DNA of 36,160 nucleotides from assembly GCA_029939895.1 (NCBI GenBank), contig JAOZSB010000009.1:1-36160 (forward strand). The letters run 5' to 3'. Each line of letters begins with the position of its first letter. Position 1 is the stretch's first letter. The notes under the pieces are model-generated. The model was not told the DNA's origin and searched no databases. It saw nothing but the letters and a program-made list of their open reading frames with translations. Positions 1,395-36,160 of this stretch are shown one piece after another. The translations under genes were made by a program, and so were the position numbers. Origin of the DNA: Desulfobacterales bacterium (lineage in GTDB: Bacteria > Desulfobacterota > Desulfobacteria > Desulfobacterales > JAOZSB01).

Positions 1395-4300
1395 TTATGT
1401 TTTTATTATTTCAATCAATATATCAAGGTTTTTCTGTGCATCTGAATAATCAAATGCTTCTATCTGAGCTACCAGTTTTTTCATTTCTGATGCAGGATAA
1501 TGTTGCTTAACAGCGTTCAGACAATCACGAATGTTTCCATATTCAGAACTGTCAAGTGCTGCTTTTAAGTCCCTCAGCACAGCTATCCGGCGTTCAGCGC
1601 TCACATCTGCCAGTATTTTACCTTCAGGTTCAGCAACTTCTGCTGGTGTCATTTTACCAATCGACTCAAACACCTGTGTCAGGGCTGTTTTTACAGCCCC
1701 AATTAAATCATTCATTTTCTCGGCATTGTGCTTGGCAGCAGCAAATTCAAGCCTGCCGGCGACTTCCTGTAGTTCTTTTGCACCAATACTGCCACCGCTT
1801 CCTTTCAAGTTGTGGGCAAGCCTCTGTATAATTTCCCAGTCTTTTATTTCAAATGCTTCCCATAACTGACCTATGGTCTCAATCTTATTTGTCTGAAACC
1901 CGGCAAGAATTCTTTTAAAGGCTGATGCATCAAGCCCCAGTGCCGCCACCGCACCACCAACATCTATACCCGGCATCATGGCCGGGAGTCCAGATGCAAG
2001 CATATCTGATGCAGATTTTTCAGGGGCAGATTCTTCCGGGGCATCACCTGTCAGGGAAGTCTCTCTGGATTTTAAACCAGCCTCAATTTTTTTGGCCAGG
2101 GTATAAAACAAATCATCCTGGTTGATTGGTTTGGAAACATAACCGTTCATGCCGGCATCCAGGCATTTTTCTTCATCACCCTTCATGGCGTTGGCGGTCA
2201 TGGCTATGATAGGAAGCTCCGAAAATTCCGGCTCCTTCCTGATAGTTCGGGTGGCCTCATATCCATCCATTTCCGGCATCTGCATATCCATGAGTACTGC
2301 ATCATAGGTATTGTTATGCACAGCTTCAACAGCCTTTTTCCCATTTTCAACAATTGTTGCGATAATCCCTGCGCCTTCAAGTATGGCAACTGCGATTTCC
2401 TGGTTTGTGATATTATCCTCGGCAACCAGAATTTTCATGCCCTTTAAACTTTTTTTATGAATGCTTGACTTTGTTGTTATTTTCTTCCGGTTGATCTCTA
2501 CCTGTTTTCCCTTACCAAAGATGTCGAGTATTGCATTATAAAGGGTCGGCGGGCTTATCGGCTTGAGAAGAAATCCTTTAAGCCCGGCTTTTTCTGCTTC
2601 TGCTTTTTCTGATGCCTGACCAAAACTTGTCATCATAATAATCGGGATTTCCAGGCCAAGATCCGTCATTATTCTTTTTGAAGTTTCAATGCCGTCGAGT
2701 TCAGGCATTTGCCAATCGGTGATTATCAGATCAAATCCGGTTTTGTCCTTCTCCAGAATGGCCAGCGCCTCCATGCCGGAATTCGCCAGTGTTACCGTGT
2801 AATCAAATGCTTCCAGTATATTCTGCACTATTTTCAGACTGTAGGCAGTATCATCTATTGCCAGCACATTAAGGTTTTCAATGTCCGTTGGAATAACCAG
2901 TATATCTTCCTGCTCACCTGACTGACGTTCAAATTTTGCAGTAAAAGAAAAAGTACTGCCCACGTTGTACTTGCTCTCCACCCAGATTTTTCCGCCCATC
3001 ATTTCCGAAAGCTGTTTGGAAATGCATAACCCCAGCCCGGTTCCGCCAAATTTCCGGGTGGTTGATGCATCAGCCTGGCTAAAGGGCTGAAACATTTTGC
3101 CCAACTGCTCCTCGGTCATGCCCAGGCCCGTGTCTATTACTGAAAATTTTAAATTAGCAAGGGTCTTTGTAATTTCCTCGCCTGTTATCCTCAGGGATAT
3201 AATGCCTCCCTGATCTGTAAATTTTATGGCATTGCCGATCCGGTTGGTAAGAATCTGCTGAACACGCAGGGCATCGCCAATCAATGCCTTTGGGATGCCG
3301 AAATCAATATCAATGAGCAATTCGAGTTTCTTTTCCTGTGCCCTGTGGGAAAAGATGCCCGCCAGATTTTCAAGGACTTCATCGAGCCTGAAGGGCCGCA
3401 ATTCCAGATCCAGCCTGCCTGCTTCTATCTTGGAAAAATCTAAAATATCATTAATAATTCCCAAAAGAGAATAACCTGAACGATGGATCATTTGCAGGTA
3501 TTTTATTACTTTTGGAAATGATTTTTCTGCAAGCGCCAAATCAGCAGAGGCAAGTATGCCGTTCATGGGGGTACGGATTTCATGGCTCATATTAGCCAGA
3601 AACTCGCTCTTTGCCTGGGTTGCGGCATCGGCAAGATCCTTTGCCTCAATCAAATCCTTGTTTGCATTCTGAAGATCTGCCGTACGAGCCTCAACCCTTT
3701 TTTCAAGGTCTTTGAGGGCATTTTTCTGCATTTCCTCGGCTTTCTTGTAATCACTTATATCAACCATCAACCCTTCCAGGCAGATAAGACGACCGTCTTC
3801 ATCCCGCTCTGCATGGGCATTTAAGGATGTCCATATTACTGATTTATCTTTTCGGAAGGCTTGAAATTCAAAATTGATAACAGAGTCATTTGCCTTGATC
3901 AGGGCTATCATTTCTTCCCGTTTTTCATTGTCAACATACACCTGGGTTCTTAGATCAGTAACAGTACTGATAAGGTCTTCCGGGGAGTCATAGCCGAGGA
4001 TACCTGCCATTGCAGGATTAGCATTAATAAACTTGCCTTCTGGTGATGTCTGAAAAATTCCTTCAAGGGCCTTTTCAAATATACTTTTATATTTGTCCTG
4101 GGCCACCAGCAGTTGCCGGCTGTGCCTGTTAAACCAGTAGGCAACCAGGCCAATCTCATCCTTTGATAAATCATTAAGCTGTATATCATGGGCGCCTTCT
4201 ATGTCCACCATATCCGAAAGGCTGCGGGTCATTATCTTTAATGGCTTTATAAGTACAATCTGCAAAAAAAGAAAAACACCGATGATGCCGAATATTAAAA

Positions 4301-5474
4301 ATCCGGTCAGGTAGAGCAGCAGTTCGCCGATGATTTTATCTGCAACTACAACTGCTTTGCTCACGGGGGTGACCATCACGACTTTCCAATAGGTTTTTGG
4401 CATGTGAAGAATAGCTACCTGCACAGGCTCCTTGAGAAGCAGGTCTTTTTGTATCATAAAGCTGTCGAGCAGAAGAGTGTTCCGGGTTTTCTTGCCCAGT
4501 GGGTCCTGTAGAATTGAAGCAATCAGCAGAGATTCTTTCCTGCCTATTTGATAACTTTCAGCATCAAGCCGTGCTGCAAGCCTGGGGTCAAATCCCTGAT
4601 TGTTTATCATTTCCTGGTTAATAGCATCAAGTTTCTTTGCAATTTGCCCAAATAACGGATCCTTTTTTGCCAGATCATTTGCATATATAAAATCCTGTTT
4701 TACATTGCCCTTATCATCCATGGCGAATGTCTTTGCCAATCTTTCTTCGGGAAATGAAAGGAATTTATTGTTCCTGTCGAGCGCAAAGGCATACCCGCCG
4801 GTAATTTTTGCGACTTTTTCGAAAAAATCACGAAGCCCTTCAAGTTTTAAATCTATGGTGGCAACGCCCAGGGTAACATTCTTATTCTTTAGGGGAGCAG
4901 CGCATGTAACCATGGGTTGAAATGAATATGGGTCCATATATGACTTGGACCAAAAGGATTTTCCCGGTGCAATGTATTTTGTGGGTACATACCATTCTTC
5001 GTTATGATAACCAGAGCCTGCGGGGTCGTTATAATCATCATAATATTTAAGCTCACCGCTGTGCTCCCTGCCCCAGAAAAAACTGCGGCGTACTACTTTT
5101 GGATTAAACGCTCTGGGTTCAGGCCATATCCCGCCCCCGGCAATTACAGCCTCATACCCTTCATAATTTACAACATGCGGGATAAGCTGCTTGAACGTGG
5201 AAACTTTTTTTTCTAAATTTTCTCCGACATTAGCCAGGTTGGTGGTCAGGGTTTCAGCCATGGCAATCCGTTGACCAAGATCGGATATCATCCTGTGACC
5301 AGTCTGGATTGCAAGCTTGAAGGAATTCTCAACAAGAAGGGGCTTGCCCACCATCTGCATTATACCAAATACAATGCCTGCAATCATTAGAATGCATGAT
5401 AATAAGCAGACAGTGACCTTAAACTGCAATCCATGCCGCCAGCTTACAGATGACCTTTTTTGCTCTGCTTGCAT
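1395..5474 (-). CDS. Hybrid sensor histidine kinase (dCache-HAMP-PAS-HisKA-HATPase-REC-REC-Hpt)
   Basis: This 1359-aa inner-membrane phosphorelay kinase has a transmembrane helix at about 18-42, a large periplasmic dCache-like sensor (about 45-380), a second membrane helix (about 385-410), HAMP, and a PAS domain (about 465-580). HisKA follows with the phospho-acceptor in [11 protein letters not shown] (H631), then HATPase (about 715-850; GGTGLGL present). Two receivers have acceptors near D920 and D1063, and an Hpt domain has H1221 in [13 protein letters not shown]. About 100 further residues form a helical C-terminal module shared with the neighbouring broken kinase. The N-box reads ILTNRIGNA, with Arg where kinases usually have Leu. 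The start has GAGGA 7 nt upstream. It lies 36 bp after the broken paralogue and 14 nt before the HD-GYP regulator, so it looks like part of one signalling operon. The ligand is unknown. Confidence 0.96.
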
Positions 5475-5510
5475 TTATTATTCCTCAATCAAAGGTATCG
5501 CAAAAAAAAG

Positions 5511-6068
5511 CTATCCCTTTTTTATTTTATTAAGCAACGCTTCAAGCGTTTCCTGGGCTTCGGTGTAGTCGAATGATTCTATCTGATCCTGAAGCGCTTT
5601 GATTTCATCGGCAGTAAAGTTTTCCCTAACAGCATCCAGGCAGCTACGAATTTCTTCATATTCATAACTTTCAAAAGCATCATTAAGTTTTTTCAATACA
5701 AATATCCGCTGCTCAGGATCAATCCGTTTCTGCCGGGTTGCTGCCGGACTGCTGCCAGCAGGCGCAATGAGCTTTTCAATGGAATCCACCACCTGATCAA
5801 GCTTGCCCTTGACCACTTCCACCAGCCCTTCAATCACGGGTATATTCTTTTCTTTGGCTGCGATTTCCAGCTTATCTGCTTCTTTTTGCAGATCCCTGGC
5901 CCCTATGCTGCTGCCGCTTCCTTTCAGGCTGTGTGCCAGTGCCTGTAAAGCTCCCCAGTCTTTTTCCTTAAAAGCATTATCCATCTCATCATTGCTGCTG
6001 GTATTACCTTTATTAAAACCCTTCAGGATTGTCTTAAAGGTTGCCTCATCAAGGCCAAGGGCATCCAT
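5511..6068 (-). CDS. C-terminal fragment: Hpt phosphotransfer domain
   Basis: The 185-aa last piece of the broken kinase contains an Hpt domain with the phospho-acceptor His in AHSLKGSGSSIGA, followed by the same approximately 80-residue helical tail found at the end of the intact kinase. Its internal ATG at 6066-6068 has GGGAG 6 nt upstream (GGGAGAAGCAATG). A free-standing Hpt protein could therefore be made from this frame, and such a protein could shuttle phosphate for the neighbouring hybrid kinases. That is inference. By sequence it is the natural end of the split gene. It ends 36 bp before the intact kinase. Confidence 0.75.
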   Translation of the reverse strand: MDALGLDEATFKTILKGFNKGNTSSNDEMDNAFKEKDWGALQALAHSLKGSGSSIGARDLQKEADKLEIAAKEKNIPVIEGLVEVVKGKLDQVVDSIEKLIAPAGSSPAATRQKRIDPEQRIFVLKKLNDAFESYEYEEIRSCLDAVRENFTADEIKALQDQIESFDYTEAQETLEALLNKIKKG

Positions 6069-11665: not shown

Positions 11666-13072
11666 TTACCCTTTCTGGGCATACTCCACAGCCCTTTTAA
11701 CAAAAGATGCTGCCCAGGTGGTTGAGCCAAGTGCGTGGAGGTGAGTATATGATGCAAATACGTTATTAACCAGGATGCCGTCCCGTTTGTTCATAAAGCC
11801 AGTTCCACGGTCCATGCGAAACACAAGCATGTCAGAGGTTCCTTTCCATTCAAGAACGCTTGAATAATGGAACTCGTGGCCCCTTAGTTCTTCGTTCACG
11901 GCAAAATAAGGATTTTCCTTTTCAGCAGTCACCACGGTATAGCCATGCCCCTGCGGCTTTTCTGAAAACCCATAAACCGCCGGTATCACGCCCGCCATTG
12001 GATAGTGAACGCCATCAAGAACAAGCTCTTCACCCAGGTACATCAGACCGCCGCATTCTGCGTAAATCGGCAGGCCCTTTTGGGCAAGCGACTTGATTTG
12101 GGAATTGTATGTTTCATTGCGGGCAATCTGTGCAGCATGTGTCTCTGGAAAACCTCCGCCAATGTACAGGGCATCAACATCCGGCACATTCTCATCTGAA
12201 AACGGGCTTGTGAAAACCAACTCTGCACCGTTTTCTTCCAGAGCAGCAAGATTTTCCGGGTAATAAAACTGAAAGCAGGAATCCCGCATAACTCCTATGC
12301 GAACCCGTTGTGCTGGGCCCTCATGTGTCTGGTCATCGGATACTGTTGCAGGCGTATCATGCAGACAGGCTTCATCAAGCTCTCCTGTGTCCTGTGAAAA
12401 CTCGTACAGAGCATCAAGATCAAGGTATTTCGAAGCAATATCAGCAGCCCGGTCAAGGGATTCCTTTGCCCAGAAATGCTCCACAGTAGGAACCAGCCCC
12501 ATGTGCCTTTCCGGGAATGCAGACTCCTTCATCCGTGGAATTGCTCCGATAACCGGTATATTGGTATGCTTCTCGATCCCCTCACGAATTACGCTCTGGT
12601 GGCGTTTTCCTGCTATACGGTTAAGGATCACGCCCTTTATGTTCACGTCCTTATCAAAATCAGCACACCCGGCAACAAGGGCAGCCACCGTAAGGGTGCA
12701 TTTTGTGCAGTCGATTATCAGTATTACAGGAAGTTTCAGCAGTTTTGCCAGCTCTGCCGTGCTGGTGGTTCCAACGGAATCCATGCCGTCGAACAGGCCA
12801 CGGTTGCCTTCTACTATTGATATGTGGGAGTTTTCAGAGTGGCTTGCAAAAGAGCGCAGAATTGTGTGTGGCTCCATGAGAAAGGGGTCAAGGTTGCTGC
12901 ATGGCCGACCAGCAGCAAGCGCCAGCCAGCCAGCATCAATATAGTCTGGCCCTTTTTTAAAGGGGGCAACAAATTTGCCAGAATTTTTTAAGGCAGCGGT
13001 TACTCCGACAGAAATCATGGTTTTCCCAGAGCCGCCCCTGAGGGCAGCTATGATCAGGCCGGAACGCCGCAT
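11666..13072 (-). CDS. cobB: CobB/CbiA-type amidase (DsrN-like siroheme amidase)
   Basis: This ATP- and glutamine-dependent amidase is homologous to cobyrinic acid a,c-diamide synthase. The N-terminal DTB-synthetase-like domain carries the P-loop GGSGKT (13-18). The C-terminal class I glutamine amidotransferase domain carries the nucleophile in YAECGGLMYL (C340) and the His motif RGHEFHYSS. At 468 aa it has the normal family length. It is the last gene of the dsr cluster, 7 nt after dsrD. In sulfur metabolism the equivalent gene is dsrN, whose product is thought to amidate siroheme to the siroamide bound by DsrAB, and I favour that role over vitamin B12 synthesis because of location. Some B12-related activity cannot be excluded from sequence. 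Confidence 0.95.
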   Translation of the reverse strand: MRRSGLIIAALRGGSGKTMISVGVTAALKNSGKFVAPFKKGPDYIDAGWLALAAGRPCSNLDPFLMEPHTILRSFASHSENSHISIVEGNRGLFDGMDSVGTTSTAELAKLLKLPVILIIDCTKCTLTVAALVAGCADFDKDVNIKGVILNRIAGKRHQSVIREGIEKHTNIPVIGAIPRMKESAFPERHMGLVPTVEHFWAKESLDRAADIASKYLDLDALYEFSQDTGELDEACLHDTPATVSDDQTHEGPAQRVRIGVMRDSCFQFYYPENLAALEENGAELVFTSPFSDENVPDVDALYIGGGFPETHAAQIARNETYNSQIKSLAQKGLPIYAECGGLMYLGEELVLDGVHYPMAGVIPAVYGFSEKPQGHGYTVVTAEKENPYFAVNEELRGHEFHYSSVLEWKGTSDMLVFRMDRGTGFMNKRDGILVNNVFASYTHLHALGSTTWAASFVKRAVEYAQKG

Positions 13073-13079
13073 TTAATGC

Positions 13080-13316
13080 TTATTCGCCTTCTGCGCCAGC
13101 CTGTTTGCCAGCACCTTTGAGTCCGTACATCGAGGTACTTCCACTTGACCAGTATTCCAATACGCCTTCTTCAACCATTTTAGTGACAAGCTTTTTAGCC
13201 AGTCTTGGTTTCATGTCGAGAATCTTGGCAAGATCGTTGAAGTAAAACTTGGTCTTTGTTTTGGCTTTTTTCTCAAGTTTTTCAACTATCATTTTTTTTG
13301 CTTCATCGAATTCCAT
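13080..13316 (-). CDS. dsrD: DsrD, small winged-helix activator of sulfite reductase
   Basis: This 78-aa cytoplasmic protein lies directly downstream of dsrB, its usual place in sulfate reducers. The sequence is lysine-rich and helical (EKLEKKAKTKTKFYFNDLA, then MKPRLAKKLVTKMVEEGVL), consistent with the known winged-helix fold, and ends in a short Gly/Ala-rich tail. DsrD has been described as an allosteric activator of DsrAB rather than a DNA-binding regulator, and it serves as a marker of reductive-type sulfur metabolism. AAGGA lies 9 nt before the ATG. A 143-bp gap with a hairpin separates it from dsrB, which could uncouple its expression from the reductase subunits. Identification is by size, composition and context, and is strong. 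Confidence 0.96.
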   Translation of the reverse strand: MEFDEAKKMIVEKLEKKAKTKTKFYFNDLAKILDMKPRLAKKLVTKMVEEGVLEYWSSGSTSMYGLKGAGKQAGAEGE

Positions 13317-13413
13317 AATAATATTCCTTCATCTTAAGAGCTTTTTGCTTATTTCATAACCAGGCCTTCGGAATAAATTAAGCAATCGGCTTCGGCAAAA
13401 CTTTTTAGTTTAT

Positions 13414-13445
13414 TGAGAGGGAAACATTGATCCGCCTCCCTCTCA
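13414..13445 (-). promoter_or_regulatory. Hairpin between dsrB and dsrD
   Basis: A perfect 9-bp inverted repeat, TGAGAGGGA (13414-13422) and TCCCTCTCA (13437-13445), encloses a 14-nt loop. It begins 15 nt after the dsrB stop in the direction of transcription and is not followed by a strong U run. It is therefore more likely an mRNA-stabilising or processing element, or partial attenuator, than a full terminator. This could set the DsrAB to DsrD/CobB ratio. Confidence 0.6.
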
Positions 13446-13459
13446 GGGTCTTAAATATC

Positions 13460-14605
13460 TTAGAACTTAAACTGGGTCGTTTGACGCCAGGTGTAGTATG
13501 CAGGATCACGGAAGTCATCAATAAGATGATGGGTAAATTCGAGTTCGCATTTGTCGAAGAACCTTTCCCATCCGATTCTCTCGGCCCATTCGCCAACACG
13601 CTCGTACTTATTGGCGTCTGCGGAATATGCCTCAACTATCTTGGAGATAGCTGCTGTTGTTGATGGCCAGCGTGGAGCTTCATTAGGAATAAACGCAACA
13701 ACAACCTTGGAGAACTTAGGTGCGCTGATTCTATTTGAAACCTTTCCACCTACCATAAGTACAATACCGTCACCCTCAGTATCTGCCAGAGGCATTGAGG
13801 GACACATTGTGTAGCAATTACCACAGAACATACATCTTTCGTTCTTGATGGCGATTGAGTTGAGGGTCTTGCCTTCAAATTCCACCTTGGTTGGCTTCAA
13901 AGCTGCTGTTGGGCAGGCAGAGATAGCAAGAGGAATTTCACACATTTTGTCAAGGTACTCATGATCCATCATCGGTGGCTTACGGTGATAGCCAAGGATA
14001 GCGATGTCGGAGCAATGTACAGCACCGCACATATTGAGACAGCAAGCCAGGGAAACCCTGCACTGTGCTGGAAGTCTCATTTGTTTAAAATCGTCAAACA
14101 GTACATCCATGGCAGCCTTTACCGGGCCTGATGCGTCTGTTGCCGGGGTATGACAGTGAATCCAACCCTGGGTATGAACGATGTTTGTGATTCCTGCGCC
14201 GGTTCCGCCAACTGGAAACTTGAAGCTTCCGCCAGCAAACTTGCGTGATTCAAGGTCTTCGATCAGCGGTCTGACTTTGTCTTCGCTGTCTACCATGAAC
14301 TCTATGTTATTTCTTGAGGTAAACCTGAGAAAGCCGTCACAATGTTTGTCTGCGATCTCAGAGATTTCACGAATATGGGTTACCGTCATAAGACGTGCGC
14401 CGCCAACTCTTACCGTATATACCTTGTCTCCGGTCTCAGATACATGAACAAGAACGCCAGGCTGAAGGATTTCATGATACAGCCACTGGCCTTTGTTCTT
14501 TTTGATGACTGGAGGATAAAATTCCTCGAAATGTTTGGGGCCGATGTCTGTAATTCTGTCTTCCATCGGCTTGTCTGGATTATATCCTGAAGATACGAAT
14601 GCCAT
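13460..14605 (-). CDS. dsrB: Dissimilatory sulfite reductase subunit beta
   Basis: This is the beta subunit of the DsrAB siroheme sulfite reductase, which reduces sulfite with electrons from the DsrMK/DsrC pathway, the last step of sulfate respiration in the cytoplasm. It has the normal length (381 aa). The siroheme-coupled [4Fe-4S] ligands are C151, C188, C189 and C193 (region [10 protein letters not shown]), the same numbering as in the Desulfovibrio enzyme. The inserted ferredoxin domain shows CPTAAL (C231) and CMFCGNC (C258, C261, C264). The start has GGGAGG upstream and lies 13 nt after the dsrA stop, so the two are co-translated. No key residue is missing. DsrC and the DsrMKJOP complex are not in this window, as is common in sulfate reducers. 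Confidence 0.99.
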
Positions 14606-14618
14606 TATTGATCCTCCC

Positions 14619-15932
14619 TTATCTCAGATGGTGTTTTCTGAATTCGTTTACATCACGGTCCCAACCGCCTTCAACCTCATCTTCATTCCAGAAGATGTAT
14701 GGATTGTGTCTCGGTTCCTGGACATGCTGAATAACAGGCTCGATGTTACAAGCCTTGAGCATTTTCTGGAAGCCCTGACGTTTGATCAATTCGCCCAAAC
14801 GTTCGCGGTTCTTGGCTTCTTCCATCCACCAATCCCAGATTGCTTCAATAACTTCTTTGATCTCGTCGTAAGGCTCTTCAACTTTAACAAAAGGCACGAG
14901 GAGGGAACCCATCTGGGCACCATCAAGGATAGGAGCTTTGGCGCCAACCAGGATAGAACATCCTCTGTCAAGGCCAATTCTCAATGCACGTGGCATTGCA
15001 TTGATACAATGCATGCAGCGGGTACATTCTCTGTTATTGATTTCGAGCTTGCCGCCTTCATAACGCATACAACCAGTCGGACAAAGGTCGATTATTTCTT
15101 CTTGGATGTCAAATGCACCCCAGTCGCGGGAAGCATGAGCGCCACCATTAGGTACAAGCTCTCCGCCTACATAACCGGCGACAGCTTCCTGGTCGACTCT
15201 GATGTCATCGCGCCAGGTTCCAATGAAGGACATGTCAGAACGTGCGATTGATGCAACACAACCATTGGGGCATCCATCAAATTTAAACTTGAATTTATAT
15301 GGGAAAGCAGGACGGTGAAGCTCATCCTGGTATTCCATTGTAAGGGTATGGCACAGATTCTGTGTGTCGTAGCATGCGTATTCGCAGCGTGATGAGCCAA
15401 TACAGTCAGAAGGGGTTCTCAGGTTTGAGCCTGATCCACCAAGATCCTGTCCCATGTTATGAGTCAACTCATAGAAGATTTCTTCGAGCTGAGGAGTCTG
15501 TGTACCAATCAGAACAACATCACCTGTTGAGCCGTGCATATTTGTGAGTCCACTTCCGCGGAAGTCCCACAGGTCACAAAGCTGATTCAGGAATTTTGTG
15601 TTGTAATATTTACCAGCCGGCTGGCTGATACGGATTGTATGAAAATGTGCGACTCCGGGGAACATCTCTGGCTGGTCACAATAACGGCCAATAACGCCGC
15701 CGCCATAACCGAATACACCAACGATTCCGCCGTGCTTCCAATGGGTTCTGCCGTGTTTGAAGGACAGCTCTAAAACTCCGAGAAGGTCGTCACAGACATC
15801 GACTGGAATCTGATACTCAACGCCTTTCTCGTTTTTGGCCCTTACTTCGGCTTCTTGCTTTATGTCGGACACAAAGCTCGGCCACGGGCCACTCTCAAGC
15901 TGGTCCAACAAGGGAGTTGCATGTTTTGCCAT
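14619..15932 (-). CDS. dsrA: Dissimilatory sulfite reductase subunit alpha
   Basis: This is the alpha subunit of DsrAB (437 aa, full length). The siroheme/[4Fe-4S] ligands are C177 and C183 ([13 protein letters not shown]) with C221 and C225 (DGCPNGC). The ferredoxin domain has C284 (DLCPTGC) and CTRCMHC (C303, C306, C309). The sequence is of the reductive bacterial type, close to Desulfobacterales proteins by my reading. GGAGGTAATACA directly precedes the ATG, a near-ideal ribosome site fitting a very highly expressed enzyme. It is the first gene of dsrA-dsrB-dsrD-cobB. A sigma70-like promoter lies about 250 bp upstream (16184-16213). Substrate and pathway follow from the family. The taxonomic placement is impression rather than a computed tree. 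Confidence 0.99.
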
Positions 15933-18676: not shown

Positions 18677-19843
18677 ATGCTGTTTAAAGAAATAAAACTC
18701 ACAAACATCCTCTCCTTTGGCGATGAAGGCGAAACAATCCCCCTTGGGCCACTTAATGTGTTAATCGGCCCGAATGGTTCCGGCAAATCAAACCTGATTG
18801 AAGTAATTTCCCTTTTGCAGGCTGCGCCCAGGGACATTTTAAAAGCTGTAAGCAAAGGAGGTGGTGTCAGCGACTTGTTGTGGAAGGGAGGCGAGAATAC
18901 GCCTGTTGCAGAAGTTGGGGCTGCTGTTTCCGCTCCAGGAGTTGACGGCGAAAGGTTTCGGCACACGTTGTCTTTTTATGAAACAGGGCAACGATTTTTT
19001 ATTTATGATGAGCATATTGAGCTGGAGAAACCTTCTGGTGGAAACGTTCTTACAGAAAATCTATACAGTTTTCAAAAAGAACTGCAAGCCTCTATAGCTA
19101 ATGAAAACACTTTTAGTCCTGGACAAGAAGGTCTTGACCCCCAGCAATCTATCTTGTCACAGATGAAAGACCCGAATGATTTTTCTGGACCGACTTTGCT
19201 TGGCTACAAACTTGGTAGGATCAAAATTTACAGGGATTGGCAATTTGGGCGCAGAGCAAAGTTACGACAGCCACAGCCTGCTGATGCTCCGGGTGTTTTT
19301 CTTGACGAGGACTGCCTGAACCTTGGGCTGGTTTTGAACCAGCATCGGGGCAAACCAGCGGTTAAAAGGGAAATCCTAAAATATCTGGCGGATTTCTACG
19401 AAGGGCTTGAAGATTTTGATATAAGCGTTATTGGCAATACTGTTCAGATAGTTTTGCAGGAGGGCGACGTTATGATTCCAGCGACCCGCCTTTCAGACGG
19501 CACGCTCCGCTATCTCTGCCTGCTGGCGATCCTTTGCCATCCTGAACCGCCGCCCCTTGTCTGTATTGAAGAGCCGGAACTGGGCCTTCACCCTGATATT
19601 ATTCCCATTCTTGCGGAGCTTCTAAAGAAAGCATCAACACGTTCCCAGCTTATCGTTACGACCCACTCGGAAATATTAATTGACGCACTCAGCGATACGC
19701 CAGAGTCGGTTGTTGTGTGCGAAAAGGAAAACGGGCGCACCTCCATGAAACGCCTTGACGCTGACCAGTTAAAAGACTGGCTTGAAAAGTACACTCTGGG
19801 CGAACTGTGGGTAAAGGGTGAAATTGGGGGAAACCGCTGGTGA
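18677..19843 (+). CDS. ABC-type AAA ATPase (AAA_21/OLD-like), candidate defence ATPase
   Basis: This 388-aa predicted ATPase of the RecF/OLD-like ABC class has Walker A GPNGSGKS (31-38), the signature-like RLSDGTLRY (271-279), Walker B LVCIEEPELGLHP (294-306) and the switch His in LIVTTHSE (H330). The N-terminal start MLFKEIKLTNILSFGD is typical. There are no membrane segments. It overlaps the next gene by 4 bp (GTGA), so the two are co-translated. ATPases of this group are commonly paired with TOPRIM-type proteins in anti-phage or DNA-repair modules. PARIS (AriA ATPase with the DUF4435 TOPRIM AriB) is the best-known analogue, though this is not PARIS itself. The ribosome site is weak (AAGAAG). 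Defence function is inference from the pairing. Confidence 0.92.
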   Translation: MLFKEIKLTNILSFGDEGETIPLGPLNVLIGPNGSGKSNLIEVISLLQAAPRDILKAVSKGGGVSDLLWKGGENTPVAEVGAAVSAPGVDGERFRHTLSFYETGQRFFIYDEHIELEKPSGGNVLTENLYSFQKELQASIANENTFSPGQEGLDPQQSILSQMKDPNDFSGPTLLGYKLGRIKIYRDWQFGRRAKLRQPQPADAPGVFLDEDCLNLGLVLNQHRGKPAVKREILKYLADFYEGLEDFDISVIGNTVQIVLQEGDVMIPATRLSDGTLRYLCLLAILCHPEPPPLVCIEEPELGLHPDIIPILAELLKKASTRSQLIVTTHSEILIDALSDTPESVVVCEKENGRTSMKRLDADQLKDWLEKYTLGELWVKGEIGGNRW

Positions 19844-20478
19844 GCAGTAAAGAAAAAAAAATTAGAATCTACGTTGAGGGCGGGGGAGACCAAAGAATAT
19901 TAAAGCGTGAGTGTCGCCGGGCTTTTTCAAAATTTTTTAAAAAGGCCAAACTTAAAGGCAGAATTCCGGAAATACACTCCAGTGGTTCCCGTCAAAGTGC
20001 TTTTGATGATTTCCGCACAGCAGTAAACAATCCATCCGATGATATACTTCCGCTTTTGCTGGTGGACAGCGAACAGGCGGTTAATGTAGCACACCAGCGT
20101 GAGGGGCAGTTCAGACCCTGGGATCATCTGCATATCAGGGACAAGTCCTGGAAAAAACCCAAAGATACCAATGATAATCAAGTGCATTTCATGGTGCAGT
20201 GCATGGAAGCGTGGTTGATTGCCGACCAGGACAGCATTGAACAATTTTATGGAAATAATTTCAACACAAAAGCTTTGCCAAAAAATCGAAATATTGAATT
20301 GATTGAAAAGGCAGTACTTTTTGATGCATTGAAAAGAGCAACAAAAGACACCCAAAAGGGCAAATACGGCAAGGGCGCTCATTCCTTTAAAATTCTTGAA
20401 CAAGTGAATCCAGACCAGGTTTTTAGCAAGTCAAAATGGGCGAAGAGGCTTAAGGATCAGCTTGATGAAGTTTTATAG
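19840..20478 (+). CDS. DUF4276 family TOPRIM-like protein
   Basis: This 212-aa protein of the DUF4276 family is paired with the preceding ATPase. The TOPRIM-like acidic residues are visible: Glu in YVEGGGDQ (E13) and the Asp/Glu pair in LLLVDSE (D76, E78). The conserved HFMVQCMEAWLIAD motif sits at about 135-148. This suggests a metal-dependent nuclease-type core. The start is GTG at 19840-19842, overlapping the ATPase stop TGA, with GGGGGA upstream. By analogy with ATPase/TOPRIM pairs it may be the effector released or activated by the ATPase. Whether it cuts DNA or RNA is unknown. Confidence 0.88.
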   Translation: MSSKEKKIRIYVEGGGDQRILKRECRRAFSKFFKKAKLKGRIPEIHSSGSRQSAFDDFRTAVNNPSDDILPLLLVDSEQAVNVAHQREGQFRPWDHLHIRDKSWKKPKDTNDNQVHFMVQCMEAWLIADQDSIEQFYGNNFNTKALPKNRNIELIEKAVLFDALKRATKDTQKGKYGKGAHSFKILEQVNPDQVFSKSKWAKRLKDQLDEVL

Positions 20479-23881: not shown

Positions 23882-24661
23882 TCAGGCAACAATTTCTTCT
23901 GCCAGGCTGTTGTAGTCGATTGCACCAAAGCTGCTCCGCATGTAGAACACTATTGGGCGGCCCACCTCGGAACTTTCTGCGATTTTCGTATTAACCCTTA
24001 TCTTCGTGTCAAACAGCAGCTTGCCGTACACATCGTGCTTTTCGAGCTTTTCAAATGTATTGATACTGACCCTGGTTCTTTTGTCATAAAATGTGGCGAG
24101 TATCCCGGAGACTTTGAGCTTCGGATTTATTTCATCCTGAACAGCTTCTATGGTGTCGAACAGTTCTTCCAGGGCATTATAAGCATAGGGTTGTGTCTGA
24201 CATGGAACCAGAATCTCGTCTGCGCATGCGAACACGTTTACCGTTAAAAGGGACAGGCTTGGCGGCGTGTCTATGATGATGAAATCATAACTGGAAAGTA
24301 TGCTCTTCAGACCCTGCTTGAGCCGATTTTCACGGCCCTGTTCTTCAACAAGTTTTATTTCGCAGCCGGCCAGGTCCACGTGTGCAGGAATAAGGTGCAG
24401 ATCCTCAAATTCAGTCTCTACAATAACATCTTCGGTTGTTATTGAGTCTGTCTGCATCAGGATGTCGTAGGTGCTCAGTGTGTCTTCGGCTGGTGTTATT
24501 CCCAGGCCCGAAGTGGCGTTGAACTGCGGGTCCATATCAACTATTAAAACTTTTTTTTCCTCAAGGGTCAATGCCGCCCCCATATTGACGACTGTAGCTG
24601 TTTTTCCTACTCCTCCCTTTTCATTGGCAATGGCTATTATCCGTGCCCTCTTTGCTGCCAT
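23882..24661 (-). CDS. ParA/Soj-family ATPase
   Basis: This 259-aa P-loop ATPase of the ParA/MinD superfamily has the deviant Walker A KGGVGKT (15-21), the motif LIVDMDPQFNATSGLG, and IIIDTPPSLSLLTVN. Such proteins dimerise on ATP, bind DNA or membrane, and position plasmids, chromosomes or protein complexes. The start has a strong GAGGAGG site. No parB gene or parS-like repeats are in the window, so it is an orphan ParA and more likely positions a cellular structure than a replicon. It sits 86 nt downstream of a dynamin-like GTPase and upstream of a membrane kinase. A joint role in membrane organisation is an inference from gene order. Confidence 0.94.
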   Translation of the reverse strand: MAAKRARIIAIANEKGGVGKTATVVNMGAALTLEEKKVLIVDMDPQFNATSGLGITPAEDTLSTYDILMQTDSITTEDVIVETEFEDLHLIPAHVDLAGCEIKLVEEQGRENRLKQGLKSILSSYDFIIIDTPPSLSLLTVNVFACADEILVPCQTQPYAYNALEELFDTIEAVQDEINPKLKVSGILATFYDKRTRVSINTFEKLEKHDVYGKLLFDTKIRVNTKIAESSEVGRPIVFYMRSSFGAIDYNSLAEEIVA

Positions 24662-24747: not shown

Positions 24748-27015
24748 TTATGCACCGGAGCGTATTTCATTTTGTACTACCAATAGCCTTTCCTGAATCT
24801 TCCTTGCGGAAATTTCCATTCCCTTTAAAATATCTTCTGCTCTTTCCTTATCAATTTGCCTGCGGTTTATCAAGCCGGCTATTTCAGTCAGGTCGGTTGC
24901 ATATGCCTGAAACCTGTCGAGAAGCGACTCGTACAGGGACTCGGTGCATGCATCAATAAGTCGGTGGAAGTACTGGAACTTGAGGTTTTCCTGGTAGTCC
25001 TTCATGTGATAGAGAACGCTTCCAAGTGTTTCCTTTTTCATCTGCTTCACACCATCATCAAGGGCCATTACTTCATCTTTTCTATCGTTTTGAATCGGCT
25101 GCTTCATCATCTTTCGTACTACTCGCACAAAAGAGTAATACCCAAGTTTAAGCACGGCCTCTGTCTTGATCCTTGCGCTGTAGCGCATAACAGCCGTTGC
25201 CGCAGGCAGCCGGATATCCAGTGCATTTTTCAGCGGCTCAAGATCATTAAGGGATACTGCTTCTTCCGTAGCTTCTGCACCATTTGTGCTTTCGGCTATG
25301 TTTAATGAATTATCAGGATCAACAGCAGAGTAGTAACCAAAAATTGCATCCTTCACCATAACATCAAAGGGTTCTATGTTTGATTCGAGAACCGCCTTGA
25401 TCTTTTTTTCCTTTTCAGACACATGGCGGATAATCCTTGGATTGACGGTTTCTGCCATGTAGTTATCAAGGGCCTGCTTGAACTCCTGATAAACATAGTA
25501 AAGGGTGCTGTAAAAATTTTTAGGATTTACATCGGATTCATATTTTTCCTTTGCAAACCCATAATTGCCGATAAACACCGCCAGATCCCTGATGGTCTCG
25601 CCATCCCTGCGGTCAAAGAACTTGTCTGACTCTCTGGATATTTCCTTTTTCAATTGCATGGCAGTGCCGTCCAGGGCATTTTTAACCATCTGCTTGATCT
25701 GGGTCATCTTGGCCTGGTGGCTCCTGACCCGGTTAAGCAGATCCTCGGACAACCCGCCATTGCCGGACACAAGATCTTTGTTAATCAATATCCACTGGCG
25801 CATCCCCGCAGTTATTACATTTATCCTGCCCAGGCGATCCTTCAGCAAAAGCTCGTACCTGCGGCCCGACAGCTTTTTTAAAAATGATTTTGTAAAAACT
25901 TCTGCACCCTCGTCGGAAAACTCTACAAAATCAAGATCACTGTCCCAGAGTTCGAGTTTTTTTCTATCCTTTGTGGTAAGCTCTGCCCTTGTATCTCTAA
26001 AAAGATTCAGAAGCGCAGAATACGCATAGACCTCCGGGTCGGGCTTAATTATGGCTATCTCTTCGGTTATCCGCGCAATAAGTGCCTTGAGGCTTTCCAC
26101 GGACTCATGCTCGTTTATATCAACATTGACCATAAATATCAGGTTTTCAGACATTCCCATCTTGCGGAGCATGTTCAGAAAACGGATGTCTGCTCTTCGC
26201 AGTCCGGTTCTGGAGCTTACCACATAAATCATGATGTGGGCTGTCACCAGATAGTCCTGTATCAGGGCAAGGTGCAGGGGGTTTGGTGAATCACTTCCCT
26301 GACAGTCGGCAATCTCCACGCCTTCACCGATTGCTCCGGTGTCAAGACGAAGTTCAACATCCTTTAAAAATACAGCAAGGGTCTCATCTCCGACATAGTC
26401 CTTGTGCTTTGCTATCATGTTGCCGTCAAGAATCAGCACCTTCTGGGGAAGCTGGGACTTGATCTGGTCATATCCATTTACATATGAGGAAAGCAGCACG
26501 CTGTTGAGGCTTCGTGCATCCTCTGTTATCAGCTCATCAGCGGTCAGGCCGGCAAGCGATTTTTCCAGCAGATCCCGCAGATAAAAATTGGTAATGTCGA
26601 CCTGGCGGGCATTTTCATTAAGCCTGAATCCAGGCAACAGAACAGTAGCCTGCTCTATATCCGCATTAACTTCATCTAATGACTTAAAGGTCAAAACCGC
26701 CCTGTTTTCGCTTGATTTACCCATCCGGGTAACAAAGGAGGTCACAACACCAGCACCCCTTTTTAAGTGATCCCCCCTGAAAATGGAGTTCACAAAGGTG
26801 CTTTTGCCTGATTTTATTGCCCCTACAGTCGCCACCTTCAGCACATCGGAGGAGACTTTTTTCATGATGCCGGAAAGGGATTTTTCCCAGTCAGTAAAGG
26901 CCTGGCCTGAAAATCCGGGGATGGTGGTCGCAGTAATGAAAAGTGCTGAAAGCTCTTTGCACAGGTCTGACAACTCCGTTCTAAACTCGCTGTACCTGTC
27001 GTTTTCCGTGGTCAT
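24748..27015 (-). CDS. Dynamin-like large GTPase
   Basis: This 755-aa bacterial dynamin-family protein shows G1 GAIKSGKST (65-73), a G2 Thr in GVVTSFVTRM, G3 DCQG (237-240) and a G4-like VNVD (about 296-299). A long alpha-helical stalk-like region follows to the C terminus. I see no clear transmembrane hairpin, so membrane contact would be peripheral. Bacterial dynamins polymerise on membranes and remodel or protect them. Roles in stress survival, vesicle release, cytokinesis and phage defence are known for family members. GAGGA precedes the ATG, and a plausible promoter lies about 115 bp upstream. Unlike many bacterial dynamins it is not paired with a second dynamin gene. Its neighbour is a ParA-type ATPase, which is unusual. 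Confidence 0.9.
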   Translation of the reverse strand: MTTENDRYSEFRTELSDLCKELSALFITATTIPGFSGQAFTDWEKSLSGIMKKVSSDVLKVATVGAIKSGKSTFVNSIFRGDHLKRGAGVVTSFVTRMGKSSENRAVLTFKSLDEVNADIEQATVLLPGFRLNENARQVDITNFYLRDLLEKSLAGLTADELITEDARSLNSVLLSSYVNGYDQIKSQLPQKVLILDGNMIAKHKDYVGDETLAVFLKDVELRLDTGAIGEGVEIADCQGSDSPNPLHLALIQDYLVTAHIMIYVVSSRTGLRRADIRFLNMLRKMGMSENLIFMVNVDINEHESVESLKALIARITEEIAIIKPDPEVYAYSALLNLFRDTRAELTTKDRKKLELWDSDLDFVEFSDEGAEVFTKSFLKKLSGRRYELLLKDRLGRINVITAGMRQWILINKDLVSGNGGLSEDLLNRVRSHQAKMTQIKQMVKNALDGTAMQLKKEISRESDKFFDRRDGETIRDLAVFIGNYGFAKEKYESDVNPKNFYSTLYYVYQEFKQALDNYMAETVNPRIIRHVSEKEKKIKAVLESNIEPFDVMVKDAIFGYYSAVDPDNSLNIAESTNGAEATEEAVSLNDLEPLKNALDIRLPAATAVMRYSARIKTEAVLKLGYYSFVRVVRKMMKQPIQNDRKDEVMALDDGVKQMKKETLGSVLYHMKDYQENLKFQYFHRLIDACTESLYESLLDRFQAYATDLTEIAGLINRRQIDKERAEDILKGMEISARKIQERLLVVQNEIRSGA

Positions 27016-32846: not shown

Positions 32847-32889
32847 GTATTAAATTTGCCAAAAGTTAATGATATGGAGGGTTAAAAGG

Positions 32890-33912
32890 ATGGCAAATCC
32901 AGAAAAATTCGAAAATTCAGCCAGTCTGATTCCGCCGATTGAGAAGAATGCAGACGGGGAAACCCGCAAAGCCGGGTTTGAAATTGAATATACAGGGGTT
33001 ACCCTTGAGGATTCTGTAAAGATTCTGATTGACATTTTTGGTGGCGAGCATGTTGCTGAAAGCCGCTTTGATAATAGAATAGTCGGAACCAGGTACGGTG
33101 ATTTCACCGTAATGATTGACACGGCAGTGCTGCAAAATCAGGCCTATGACAAGTATTTAAAAAAAGTTGGCGTTGACCTGGATTTTTTAAGGGTCAGGAA
33201 CACAGCCGAAGAAATAATAGATAATGTTGCTTCTATCATGGTTCCATACGAAGTGGTGACACCCCCGATTCCAATGACTGCCCTGCATGAGCTGGACAGG
33301 ATGTCGGAGGCCCTCAGGGAATCAGGCGCAAAGGGAACGGGCGAATCTATATTCTATGCCTTTGGTTTGCACATAAATGCAGAGATGCCCTCAAGCGACT
33401 CTGCCATGCTGCTTAATTATCTCCGGGCGTTTTCCCTGCTCTACCTGATGATTGTGGAGGAATCCAAGGTTGATATTTCACGAAGCATATCACCATATAT
33501 TGACAAATTTCCAAAAACCTACATCAATAAAATCCTGGCCCAGGACTACAGCCCCACCATTGAAGAGCTTGCTGACGATTATATGGAAGAAAACCCCACC
33601 CGCAACAGGCCCCTTGACATGCTGCCCCTCCTGTTTCATATTCTGGGAGACCCGATCAAGGAAAAGGCAAAGGAGCCGCACCTGCTGTCATCAAGGCCGG
33701 CATTCCACTACCGGCTTCCAAACTGCCGGATAGACGAGGCCGACTGGCACATTTCCGATGAATGGCTGTCGTGGCTGAAGGTTGAAACACTTGCGTCTGA
33801 CCCAGGATTGATTGAAAAAATGACGGAGTCGTATTACAAAACACTGCAAGCACCCTTTGGTGAAATGAAATGGGTTATAGAGGCCAGAAAATGGATGAAT
33901 CAAAGCCAGTAA
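32890..33912 (+). CDS. Amidoligase (glutamine-synthetase-like fold)
   Basis: This 340-aa protein belongs to the putative amidoligase family, relatives of glutamine synthetase and GCS2 predicted to join an amine to a carboxylate using ATP. Visible motifs are the metal-binding glutamates in AGFEIEY, the YGDFTVMID strand, YEVVTPPIP, the His strand FGLHINAEMP, and NRPLDMLPLL and FHYRLPNC further on, which supply conserved Arg/Asn residues. I chose the ATG at 32890 because GGAGG lies 9 nt upstream. An ATG seven codons earlier overlaps that site. The stop overlaps the next gene by 22 nt. Pairing with a GATase-1-type hydrolase is the known context for this family and suggests reversible amide (glutamyl or peptide) formation. 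The substrate is unknown. Confidence 0.9.
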   Translation: MANPEKFENSASLIPPIEKNADGETRKAGFEIEYTGVTLEDSVKILIDIFGGEHVAESRFDNRIVGTRYGDFTVMIDTAVLQNQAYDKYLKKVGVDLDFLRVRNTAEEIIDNVASIMVPYEVVTPPIPMTALHELDRMSEALRESGAKGTGESIFYAFGLHINAEMPSSDSAMLLNYLRAFSLLYLMIVEESKVDISRSISPYIDKFPKTYINKILAQDYSPTIEELADDYMEENPTRNRPLDMLPLLFHILGDPIKEKAKEPHLLSSRPAFHYRLPNCRIDEADWHISDEWLSWLKVETLASDPGLIEKMTESYYKTLQAPFGEMKWVIEARKWMNQSQ

Positions 33913-34712
33913 TCGGAGTTACATGTCCCCAGCATGGTGGTCTTGCTGCGTGGATATTCATATGGCTGGGCGTGCTGATGGCTGGCGGCAGGGCTGTGCG
34001 CCTGCTCCCGAACAGGAAGGTTCCCAAAAATCTGGACGGCATCATCATAAGCGGCGGCTCAGATATTGACCCGGAGGTTCATGGAGATGGAGTTTACGGG
34101 CCGGAACAATATTTACATGATGCAAAGGAAATTCTAAAGGTTGTGGGGGCGGATTTAAAAGAAGGCACCACTGGCGATTCCAGGAGATTTGTACCCATGC
34201 TCCTGTCGCTTTTCTACCCCTTTATCTATTTTTTTCGGATGGTGCTGACCTCCAAGGCGGAAGACCGGGACCAGGCCAGGGACAAGCTTGAACTGAAAGT
34301 ACTCCAGATGGCAGTCATGGCTGAAAAACCAGTGCTTGGAATCTGCCGGGGCGCACAGATATTAAATGTTTTTTTTGGTGGAAATCTCAACATGGACATC
34401 AAGGATTTCTATCATGAGGTTCCATATATCACGACGGTGTTTCCGAAAAAAAAGATAACCATAGACAACAATAGAAAGCTGTATGCAATCCTGAAAACCG
34501 ACACTTGCGATGTTAATTCCCTTCACCACCAGTCAATACGGGAAACCGGACAGGGCCTTGTGACCTCGGCTGTTGAACCCAACGGCATAATACAGGCTGT
34601 GGAACATGCATCCCATCCCTTTATTATCGGTGTCCAGTGGCACCCGGAATACATGCCCCAGGTGAAAATACAGAGAAACATCTTCAAGGCGCTGGTTAGG
34701 GCGGCATCATAA
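33891..34712 (+). CDS. Class I glutamine-amidotransferase-like (PuuD-type) hydrolase
   Basis: This 273-aa protein of the gamma-glutamyl-gamma-aminobutyrate hydrolase type has the nucleophile Cys in LGICRGAQILN (C152) and His/Glu in GVQWHPEYMP (H251, E253), a complete catalytic triad. SGGSDIDPE near residues 54-62 marks the oxyanion loop. I prefer the ATG at 33891, where residues start MDESKPVIGVTC. An in-frame ATG seven codons earlier lies deeper in the amidoligase gene. An inserted hydrophobic segment (about 101-122, FVPMLLSLFYPFIYFFRMVL) is odd for this family and may touch the membrane. It overlaps the amidoligase by 22 nt, so it is translated with it and probably cleaves the amide bond that enzyme makes, or supplies ammonia. 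Confidence 0.9.
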   Translation: MDESKPVIGVTCPQHGGLAAWIFIWLGVLMAGGRAVRLLPNRKVPKNLDGIIISGGSDIDPEVHGDGVYGPEQYLHDAKEILKVVGADLKEGTTGDSRRFVPMLLSLFYPFIYFFRMVLTSKAEDRDQARDKLELKVLQMAVMAEKPVLGICRGAQILNVFFGGNLNMDIKDFYHEVPYITTVFPKKKITIDNNRKLYAILKTDTCDVNSLHHQSIRETGQGLVTSAVEPNGIIQAVEHASHPFIIGVQWHPEYMPQVKIQRNIFKALVRAAS

Positions 34713-34838: not shown

Positions 34839-36160
34839 TTGAAAAAAAAGTATTTCATACTTCTTTTACTGTTATGGTTTTCAGTCTGTATTCCTGGCTG
34901 CAAAACCAGCAACAAGCTGTCCTTTACGGACATAGAGAAGATAACAGTAACAGACGGCCTGCAATATAAGTGGGGGGACTGCGGGGGCAGCGGTGCAGGG
35001 CTTCCTGACTGGTCATGTATTGAATCACCGGGGTGGCAGGATTATGATGTTTCAAACCACCCGCCAAACCCGGACGGGAATAACTTTATCTGGTTTAGAA
35101 AGCGACTTCCAGAAAAGGGCATTGCCGGCGGCACAATGTTTGTCGGAAAAAAAACCTGCAAAAAAACCTTTGAGGTCTGGCTTGGCTGGAACCCTGTCTA
35201 TAAGGCCGGGAAGTCAGACAGCTCCGTTAGAAACGAATATTTCTTCAACCAGTTCCATATCATAGACCTGCCAGAGGACTTTGCCGGAAAAACCATCTAT
35301 ATAAGGGTGAACTCCAATGATCCCGCAAAGATTGGTCTTTTCAAGGATATTTATCTGCTGCCCGGCAGCAAAATTTTCAAACTGTTGATAGCACACAGCC
35401 TTGTGCATATTTTTCTTGGCATGGCCTTTATTGTAAACGGTCTTGTGGCAATATTGATCTTTTTGTTTTTCAAAGAACGAAACATGAAACAGGTTCTGTT
35501 CTTCGGGATGATGTCCATGCTCGGCGGGCTTCAAATTGTCACCAGCTCAACCTTTGTCCAGCACATGATACCGGATAAGATGCTCCTCTATTATATTGAA
35601 GGGGCTTCGCTGCTTCTATTTCCAGCAGCATTGTGGGCCTTGATAGCCTCTACTGTGGATCGTAACTTCACCATTTTTTTCAAGAGACTCTGCCAGATAC
35701 AGATCGGGCTATTCTTTGGAGCCATGCTGGCGGATCTGCTCCAGATCAAGAGCGTTTTTCTTTTTATGCCGATAATTCACAGCGTCATGGTGGTCGGTGT
35801 TCTCTCACTCCTTTATATTGCCGCTACTCAAATTTCCCGTGATAACATGGAGGCAAGGGTTCATGCCCTTGGCGGCGTGATTTACGGCCTGCTTGGACTT
35901 ACCGACCTGCTTCATTCCATGAAAATCCTGTCATTCACAGAGCAAGCCGTGTCCCACTGGGGGCTTGCAGCATATACTATATCTATTTATGTAATCATTG
36001 TCATGCGTTTTGAAAAAAACAGAAAAACAAGGGTGGAGTACGCAGCACAGCTTAAGGATTACAGCAAAACCCTGGAAATAAAGGTTCACGAGAGGACAAA
36101 AAAGCTGAACAAGTCCCTGGAAACCGAAAAGCTCGCAAATATTAAAGTAATGGACAGTAT
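34839..36160 (+). CDS. 7TMR-DISM sensor lipoprotein, partial (cut by window end)
   Basis: An open frame starts at TTG 34839-34841 and runs without stop to the end of the window (440 codons). The N terminus is lipoprotein-like (MKKKYFILLLLLW, then VCIPGC with candidate lipid Cys C21). A periplasmic beta-rich domain of about 170 residues follows, similar to 7TMR-DISM extracellular jelly-roll domains (FIWFRKRLP, then IYIRVNSND). About seven membrane helices follow (about 190-390), then a coiled coil (YSKTLEIKVHERTKKLNKSL). The output domain lies beyond the window. The end of the coil, ETEKLANIKVMDS, resembles linkers before SpoIIE-type phosphatase domains, but that is a guess. The start is uncertain: only GGTGA lies upstream, while the other nearby ATG (34831) reaches a stop after three codons. 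Confidence 0.8.
   Translation, partial: MKKKYFILLLLLWFSVCIPGCKTSNKLSFTDIEKITVTDGLQYKWGDCGGSGAGLPDWSCIESPGWQDYDVSNHPPNPDGNNFIWFRKRLPEKGIAGGTMFVGKKTCKKTFEVWLGWNPVYKAGKSDSSVRNEYFFNQFHIIDLPEDFAGKTIYIRVNSNDPAKIGLFKDIYLLPGSKIFKLLIAHSLVHIFLGMAFIVNGLVAILIFLFFKERNMKQVLFFGMMSMLGGLQIVTSSTFVQHMIPDKMLLYYIEGASLLLFPAALWALIASTVDRNFTIFFKRLCQIQIGLFFGAMLADLLQIKSVFLFMPIIHSVMVVGVLSLLYIAATQISRDNMEARVHALGGVIYGLLGLTDLLHSMKILSFTEQAVSHWGLAAYTISIYVIIVMRFEKNRKTRVEYAAQLKDYSKTLEIKVHERTKKLNKSLETEKLANIKVMDS

Follow-up and report, generated by a model that had tools for sequence, protein, structure and literature searches.

A PF12224 amidoligase and a PuuD-like hydrolase form a conserved two-gene cassette: a candidate system for reversible gamma-glutamylation

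The gene pair considered here encodes an amidoligase and a hydrolase resembling class-I glutamine amidotransferases (GATases), and lies on contig JAOZSB010000009.1 of a Desulfobacterales bacterium (assembly GCA_029939895.1). The entire contig, 36,160 nucleotides, was analyzed and is referred to as the window. The closest described systems are PuuA/PuuD and the Pseudomonas gamma-glutamyl-polyamine synthetases with SpuA, in which a ligase of the glutamine synthetase (GS) fold makes gamma-glutamyl amides; PuuD and SpuA share the C26/PuuD family and triad of the window hydrolase and are nearest to it in fold. They differ in that PuuA belongs to PF00120 and the window ligase to PF12224, that no oxidoreductase or dehydrogenase lies between the window genes, and that the window hydrolase carries a hydrophobic insert. 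The putrescine pathway set as such is not found, there being no PF00120 ligase beside the hydrolase and no oxidase domain in the window proteins scanned. A second comparison is with TdnQ/TdnT (AtdA1/A2), a gamma-glutamylanilide synthase and hydrolase: here too a GS-like (PF00120) ligase stands beside a class-I GATase-like hydrolase, but in an aniline dioxygenase operon, of which the window has none; a search of the open-access literature for the anilide pathway returned nothing on topic. Gamma-glutamyl-CDP-amidate hydrolase (NF045546) shows a C26-like release of glutamate, but the window hydrolase, for which this is the second best NCBIfam match, scores 56 bits, far below the cut-off of 250.

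The general kind of pair is already known as a prediction: Iyer et al. in 2009 reportedly predicted GS-like amidoligases with amide-cleaving partners. Pfam's own description of PF12224 labels the family putative, and no characterized product of any PF12224 enzyme was found in the open-access literature; nor was a characterized substrate, in agreement with the first-pass annotation of this contig, which held that substrates of such pairs are not established. The cross-phylum counts, the insert, and the replacement of the hydrolase in one genus, all described below, are additions of this analysis. MurT-GatD, which amidates lipid II with glutamine-derived ammonia, differs in its families, Mur ligase and GATase_3. 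In the portions of the sources available, it resembles the window pair in coupling the gene of an ATP-dependent ligase to that of a class-I GATase (PMC3267633, PMC5871853). Phage cassettes, also as far as the available portions describe them, share with the window an amidoligase beside enzymes of gamma-glutamyl chemistry: in Phage-ZRK32 a glutamine amidotransferase, glutathione synthase and gamma-glutamylcyclotransferase (PMC10945688), in Clostridium prophages a gamma-glutamyl cyclotransferase (PMC11318856), the Pfam family being named in neither, and in UFV-P2, whose ligase is PF12224, a glutamine amidotransferase and an ATP-grasp protein (PMC3890496). Unlike these, the window ligase has no match among phage records, is partnered by a C26 hydrolase, and belongs to a set found on chromosomal contigs and a few plasmids. 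A phage origin of the window pair was rejected on the first of these grounds, together with the lack of a confirmed viral-contig match and of a PHROGs match for the ligase; for the hydrolase there is a match to phrog_7218 (glutamine amidotransferase, 2.5e-18).

In the subfamily to which the window ligase belongs, the two genes form a conserved cassette. Relatives in named genomes were taken as the best 80 of at least 575 stretches encoding a relative of the ligase, ranked by similarity to the window; the 97 loci examined comprise the window, 17 further loci, and 79 of these 80 (L086, with the same contig and match as L085, was dropped). The sample spans ten phyla (Pseudomonadota, Balneolota, Bacteroidota, Campylobacterota, Bdellovibrionota, Acidobacteriota, Nitrospinota, Thermodesulfobacteriota, Myxococcota and Thermomicrobiota); in 90 of the 97 loci, the hydrolase is the next gene on the same strand, which upholds the earlier proposal that the two form a functional unit. 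In 78 of these 90, with starts taken from the longest frames, the hydrolase frame opens upstream of the end of the ligase frame, and the cassette is probably translationally coupled. Genomes of the class tell the same story: 14 of 291 carry the ligase, with the hydrolase directly downstream in 14/14 (one cut by a contig end), and the 13 strongest hydrolase matches (E <= 2.7e-29) are all in ligase-bearing genomes, the contig-cut copy being that of the fourteenth. Weaker matches in other genomes of the 291 (E 1e-11 to 6e-27) resemble ordinary PuuD-like proteins. By protein search, the ligase is present in two of 58 relatives (the genome studied here and G043), and a single-protein scan of genome contigs returned eight stretches with no relative among them. 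Over the first 60 pairs, the tree distances of ligase and hydrolase show a correlation of 0.82 (permuted maximum 0.147 over 500 shuffles); shared host phylogeny contributes to this value, and by itself would also produce a correlation. Among frames of at least 60 amino acids, the neighborhoods hold no further gene that is kept across lineages. The ligase is carried by 11 alphaproteobacterial plasmid records, with the hydrolase adjoining in the three regions opened (3/3); Dinoroseobacter shibae has the pair on a sequenced plasmid (DSHI_RS19780/DSHI_RS19775). Judged by title, many of the best 80 loci come from salt-loving or marine hosts, in a list that is similarity-ranked and rich in soda-lake genomes.

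In the window, both genes are intact, with open frames that overlap by 22 nucleotides (33891-33912), as first described. Inspection of the sequence shows a Shine-Dalgarno-like stretch upstream of each; that of the hydrolase sits 7 nucleotides 5' of its ATG, within the ligase gene. The ligase has a longer in-frame ATG at 32869, but without a well-placed Shine-Dalgarno sequence, and the hydrolase has one at 33870. The features, with conservation in the alignments described below, are:

32876..32880, + strand: Shine-Dalgarno-like GGAGG of the ligase (sequence)
32890..33912, + strand: amidoligase gene, PF12224, 340 amino acids, GS/GCS-like fold; ATG at 32890, stop ending at 33912 (Pfam, AlphaFold2 model, VIA-align)
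32980..32988, + strand: E31-x-E33, candidate metal-binding acids (E in 77/77 at both)
33118..33120, + strand: D77, candidate metal ligand (77/77; presumed role)
33250..33252, + strand: E121, candidate metal ligand (77/77; presumed role)
33370..33378, + strand: H161-I-N163, the LHIN motif (N163 in 77/77; position 161 is H in 52 and Q in 25 of 77)
33694..33714, + strand: R269-P-A-F-H273-Y-R275, candidate substrate- or phosphate-binding motif (R269, H273 and R275 in 77/77; presumed role)
33880..33883, + strand: Shine-Dalgarno-like GAGG of the hydrolase (sequence)
33891..34712, + strand: predicted PuuD/C26-like gamma-glutamyl amide hydrolase gene, 273 amino acids (PF07722; Foldseek)
34083..34268, + strand: lineage-specific hydrolase insert, residues 65-126 (41-65 residues in 52/71 rows, 11-14 in 19)
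34188..34247, + strand: predicted hydrophobic helix 100-119 within the insert (KD19 maximum of the insert 1.68)
34344..34346, + strand: C152, candidate nucleophile of the hydrolase (71/71)
34641..34649, + strand: H251-P-E253 of the hydrolase triad (70/70 rows with a letter)

The ligase matches Amidoligase_2 over nearly the whole profile (PF12224, E=2.4e-61, 208 bits against a cut-off of 22, positions 1-244 of 245); NCBIfam gave no match, and a sequence search of the PDB gave none at E <= 10. It is the sole PF12224 match in its genome (4.7 Mb, 94% complete), which also has one PF00120 glutamine synthetase, on another contig, and no GCS2 match. An alignment of 77 rows (the window and loci from the best-80 set, omitting L112, L142 and L152, on which motif-based trimming did not work) served as input for an AlphaFold2 model with a predicted local distance difference test (pLDDT) score of 90.9. 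As modeled, the ligase has the GS catalytic fold: in VIA-align, which takes a second look at Foldseek candidates, the top 50 rows are all glutamine synthetase entries (Z 11.8-13.1, root-mean-square deviation 3.1-4.7, 194-229 residues aligned). Invariant in 77/77 rows are E31, E33, D77, E121, N163, R198, R238, D243, R269, H273 and R275. Loss of the metal-binding glutamates had been named beforehand as the finding that would speak against a GS-like amidoligase; the candidates E31, E33 and E121, and D77 with them, are kept throughout, and the identification is backed both by these candidate acids and by the modeled fold.

The hydrolase is a member of Peptidase C26 (PF07722, E=4e-42, 145 bits against a cut-off of 20.5, profile positions 80-219 of 219) and also matches PF00117 (E=9e-16). 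The earlier description of a PuuD-like protein with a complete triad holds: among 71 aligned rows (L113, L136 and L152 omitted, motif-based trimming having failed on them as well), C152 is present in all, and H251 and E253 in 70/70, one row being cut short. The C26-type motif GICRG-x-Q is found in 71/71, and in VN-x-LH-x-Q the N and H are kept in 70/70 and the Q in 69/70. Foldseek with the AlphaFold2 model (pLDDT 84.4) places PuuD (6vtv, 2.4e-19), Lin1909 (3fij, 9.2e-19) and SpuA (7d50, 1.1e-17) first, with synthetase-linked GATases trailing at about 1e-11; its nearest solved relatives thus include the gamma-glutamyl hydrolases PuuD and SpuA, and one SpuA structure entry is a glutamyl thioester. 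The protein is not named PuuD here because it scores 63.2 bits against the PuuD equivalog NF008471, below the cut-off of 266. The other hydrolase match in the genome is weak (3.3e-4) and lies in a 553-residue frame, as expected for CTP synthase.

An unusual feature of these hydrolases, new in this analysis, is a hydrophobic insert flanked by the GG-x-D loop and the RD-x-x-E helix. It comprises 41-65 residues with a hydrophobic stretch in 52 of the 71 aligned hydrolases, that of the window being the longest; the remaining 19 have 11-14 residues at this position. Scored by pair, it is present in 57 of 83, window included (eight states were assigned by hand), whereas none of six ordinary PuuD-like proteins from the same order has it (0/6). 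A branch of SH-aLRT 99 splits these six from the module's 82 hydrolases, in a tree that omits the contig-cut hydrolases of L022 and L088 and draws usable frames from 6/8 generic loci (L065-L072). The insert state changes at least three times on the ligase tree and once on the hydrolase tree, in which the insert columns were kept, biasing towards few changes. The open-access literature yielded no report of it, in searches that were not aimed at the insert itself. Its helix 100-119 is modeled with moderate confidence (block pLDDT 78 and 73, residues 101-120). The best 18-residue segment of the insert has a mean <H> of 0.57, against 0.53 for the best elsewhere in the hydrolase, and is the most hydrophobic of the protein in 32 of 52 rows; the window is not among these, residues 16-33 of its hydrolase scoring higher. 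Given this weak hydrophobicity, docking of the hydrolase to a membrane is put forward simply as a hypothesis, a helix for docking to the ligase or for dimerization being equally open. A connection between the insert and ligase loop 77-121 was also considered and is unproven: the loop is 42-50 residues long in the 57 insert-bearing pairs and 34-51 in the 26 without, and with only two to three independent events no significance is possible.

What might the two enzymes do together? The reading judged on balance probable, from sequence and modeled structure, is ATP-dependent gamma-glutamylation of an amine, reversed by the partner hydrolase. GS-fold enzymes form a gamma-glutamyl phosphate that is attacked by an amine, and C26 enzymes cleave gamma-glutamyl amides via a thioester. 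By analogy, the ligase with Mg-ATP would phosphorylate the side-chain carboxylate of glutamate (ATP use and glutamate as donor being presumed), and then, if the order of steps is the usual one, couple the activated glutamate to a primary amine, with a gamma-glutamyl amide as the result; Cys152 of the hydrolase would attack the amide to form a gamma-glutamyl thioester, from which glutamate and the amine would be released, both enzymes presumably acting on the same bond. Candidate amines include a small molecule, a polyamine, a lipid or a protein.

The nature of the bond is suggested by an exchange of partners. Right after the ligase, locus L053 encodes a 153-residue protein with a GGACT domain (PF06094, 7.3e-12), whose basic N-terminus and hydrophobic stretch, judged by eye, look anchor-like. 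In its genus, g257, the ligase is accompanied by a GGACT-like gene in the hydrolase slot in 4/4 genomes searched, the other three proteins being 58-96% identical to that of L053, and in G584, the one other ligase-bearing genome of that family and a member of another genus, the slot holds a C26 hydrolase (1/1); five of the 44 genomes of the family carry the ligase. Two loci with the C26 hydrolase present, L054 and L055, have a GGACT-like protein three to four genes away on the other strand (by Pfam for L054). A plasmid search with the GGACT-like protein gave no matches, and no report of such a swap was found in the open-access literature. Because GGACT-type enzymes cleave gamma-glutamyl amines to 5-oxoproline, their taking the place of the hydrolase points to a gamma-glutamyl amide as the ligase product. 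The strongest argument for such an amide being made and then removed is this alternation, in the partner position, of different folds that have the gamma-glutamyl bond in common.

Several observations weigh against this interpretation. The swap is limited to one genus, and hence is one event. For the ligase itself, a Foldseek search of the PDB gave nothing at E <= 0.001 (the best being YbdK at 0.02, plant glutamate-cysteine ligase at 0.09 and PafA at 0.13, with Dop at 3.9 among the weaker ones), and profile comparison by hhalign is not significant (E 0.47 against GS, 11 rows, and 0.061 against GCS2, 3 rows), so that the claim to superfamily membership rests on the VIA-align fold comparison; E31/E33 align with GCS2 E22/E24 in the latter comparison, of non-significant score, and mapping of residues onto GS by hhalign gave no result. 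Six of the 96 assessable loci lack the hydrolase, one having GGACT instead (L053) and five neither (L074, L109, L134, L139, L142); L097 could not be assessed, its sequence stopping 49 nucleotides past the ligase. A ligase encoded with a hydrolase of its own product amounts to a futile cycle unless the two are regulated or separated, and no regulator was found. Finally, 297 genomes sampled evenly across the phylum gave 17 PF12224 loci, of which four (the window, L051, L054 and L055) have the C26 hydrolase and L053 has GGACT; the other 12 belong to distant subfamilies, with a C26 hydrolase nearby in 0/12, so that the pairing belongs to this subfamily and not to PF12224 as a whole. Eight of these 12 have class-II GATase-like neighbors, a type of enzyme that normally supplies ammonia: in six (L047-L050, L052, L056) class-II GATase-like and GGACT-like frames both lie downstream, a co-occurrence that counts in favor of the gamma-glutamyl reading, with L047-L050 nearly identical to one another there and counting as one; in two (L059, L062) class-II GATases stand in tandem, with no match to GGACT. 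None of the queries matched at L057, L058, L060 and L061.

Such neighbors, as the other classical ammonia donor, also lend something to the main rival, a glutamine-dependent amidation complex in which the class-I GATase-like partner would channel glutamine-derived ammonia to the GS-like ligase for amidation of a carboxylate. GS-fold enzymes use ammonia natively, the partner has the class-I GATase fold and matches PF00117 too, and the two genes are tightly coupled, all of which would suit a complex. This possibility is nevertheless regarded as rather unlikely: the partner is nearer to PuuD and SpuA (E 1e-17 to 1e-19) than to the synthetase-linked GATases and retains the C26 motifs, such a partner is missing beside some of the ligases, and the cyclotransferase-like replacement in g257 would be an odd ammonia donor, its family releasing 5-oxoproline. 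Precedents for amidation, within the portions of the sources available, are MurT-GatD, of other families (PMC3267633, PMC5871853), and the amidoligase, glutamine amidotransferase and ATP-grasp genes of UFV-P2 (PMC3890496).

Kinship of the hydrolase with PuuD and SpuA would also suit a catabolic or detoxifying route, as in PuuA/PuuD or TdnQ/TdnT, in which an amine first receives a glutamate, is then modified by oxidases encoded elsewhere, and finally loses the glutamate again. Carriage on plasmids (the 11 records above), in one case beside an aldehyde dehydrogenase and the binding protein of an amino-acid ABC transporter, is in keeping with this, but the lack of a third gene conserved across lineages and of any PuuB/PuuC-like Pfam domain in those window proteins that were scanned makes it improbable. 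Lower still stands tagging, in which, much as with PafA/Dop or RimK/RimB, glutamate or a peptide would be joined to a protein and removed by the hydrolase: PafA and Dop are among the weak Foldseek matches of the ligase, and reversible pairs exist, RimK/RimB being one in the available part of the source (PMC12239564), but no tag-like protein of at least 60 residues (the shortest frames called) is conserved nearby, and relatives of the hydrolase with known structures have small gamma-glutamyl amides as their substrates. A more specific version of the favored make-and-cleave reading would be a switch at the membrane surface, with a soluble ligase glutamylating the amine of a membrane lipid or an envelope precursor and an eraser docked on the membrane, either the insert-bearing C26 hydrolase or the anchor-like cyclotransferase-like protein of g257; to our knowledge no such lipid or envelope modification cycle has been described, and the idea is offered as a long shot.

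Since the partner slot is filled by different folds acting on gamma-glutamyl amides, any search for the product should aim at a gamma-glutamyl amide, and the plasmid-borne pair of D. shibae makes a test by knock-out and metabolomics direct. Should the hydrolase prove to be held at the membrane by its insert, a membrane amine would become a possible substrate, and its glutamylation would be a modification not seen before.

Some of the other loci have peculiarities of their own. In Marinobacter halophilus (L142, 5001-5966), the ligase frame looks interrupted, the match exceeding both ends of a 270-residue frame. The distant amidoligase of L047 (8125-10899) and those of L048-L050 are followed by a DUF5049 protein (by Pfam in L047) and then by the class-II GATase-like and GGACT-like frames; with a 1182-residue gene nearby in L048-L050 and, by eye, a recombinase-like frame in L047, the locus looks like a mobile element. 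Near the amidoligase pair of L055, positions 2536-6028 hold a GCS2 ligase, a RimK-like ATP-grasp protein with an RLAN domain, and an N-formylglutamate amidohydrolase-like gene, predicted to be a second peptide or amide system.

Downstream of the pair in the window, the first-pass annotation had placed a 7TMR-DISM sensor. A frame does start 126 nucleotides away (34839-36158, running off the contig end), and its match to PF07695 (E=0.0018, 18.7 bits) is below the 29-bit cut-off; a link to the pair did not hold up, and the gene was dropped as a module member, since a blastp comparison (E 1e-5) with the frames of the 29 other neighborhoods returned no relative. Scans of the window found seven promoters against 4.7 (standard deviation 1.7) in shuffled sequence, three terminators against 3.1, and no Rfam match. 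Neither ligase nor hydrolase matches PADLOC, and a known defense system was set aside on this basis. Elsewhere in the window, an AAA_21 ATPase and DUF4276 pair (18677-20475), followed by an unassigned 180-residue frame, matches HEC-01, a candidate defense system in PADLOC (HEC-01A 1.8e-160, HEC-01B 3e-76). At 11669-15932, two genes with sulfite/nitrite reductase domains have a CbiA/GATase_3 gene downstream, an arrangement we take to be that of dsrAB-dsrN in sulfur-cycle bacteria, and a dynamin-family GTPase (24748-27015) adjoins a ParA-like ATPase (23882-24661).

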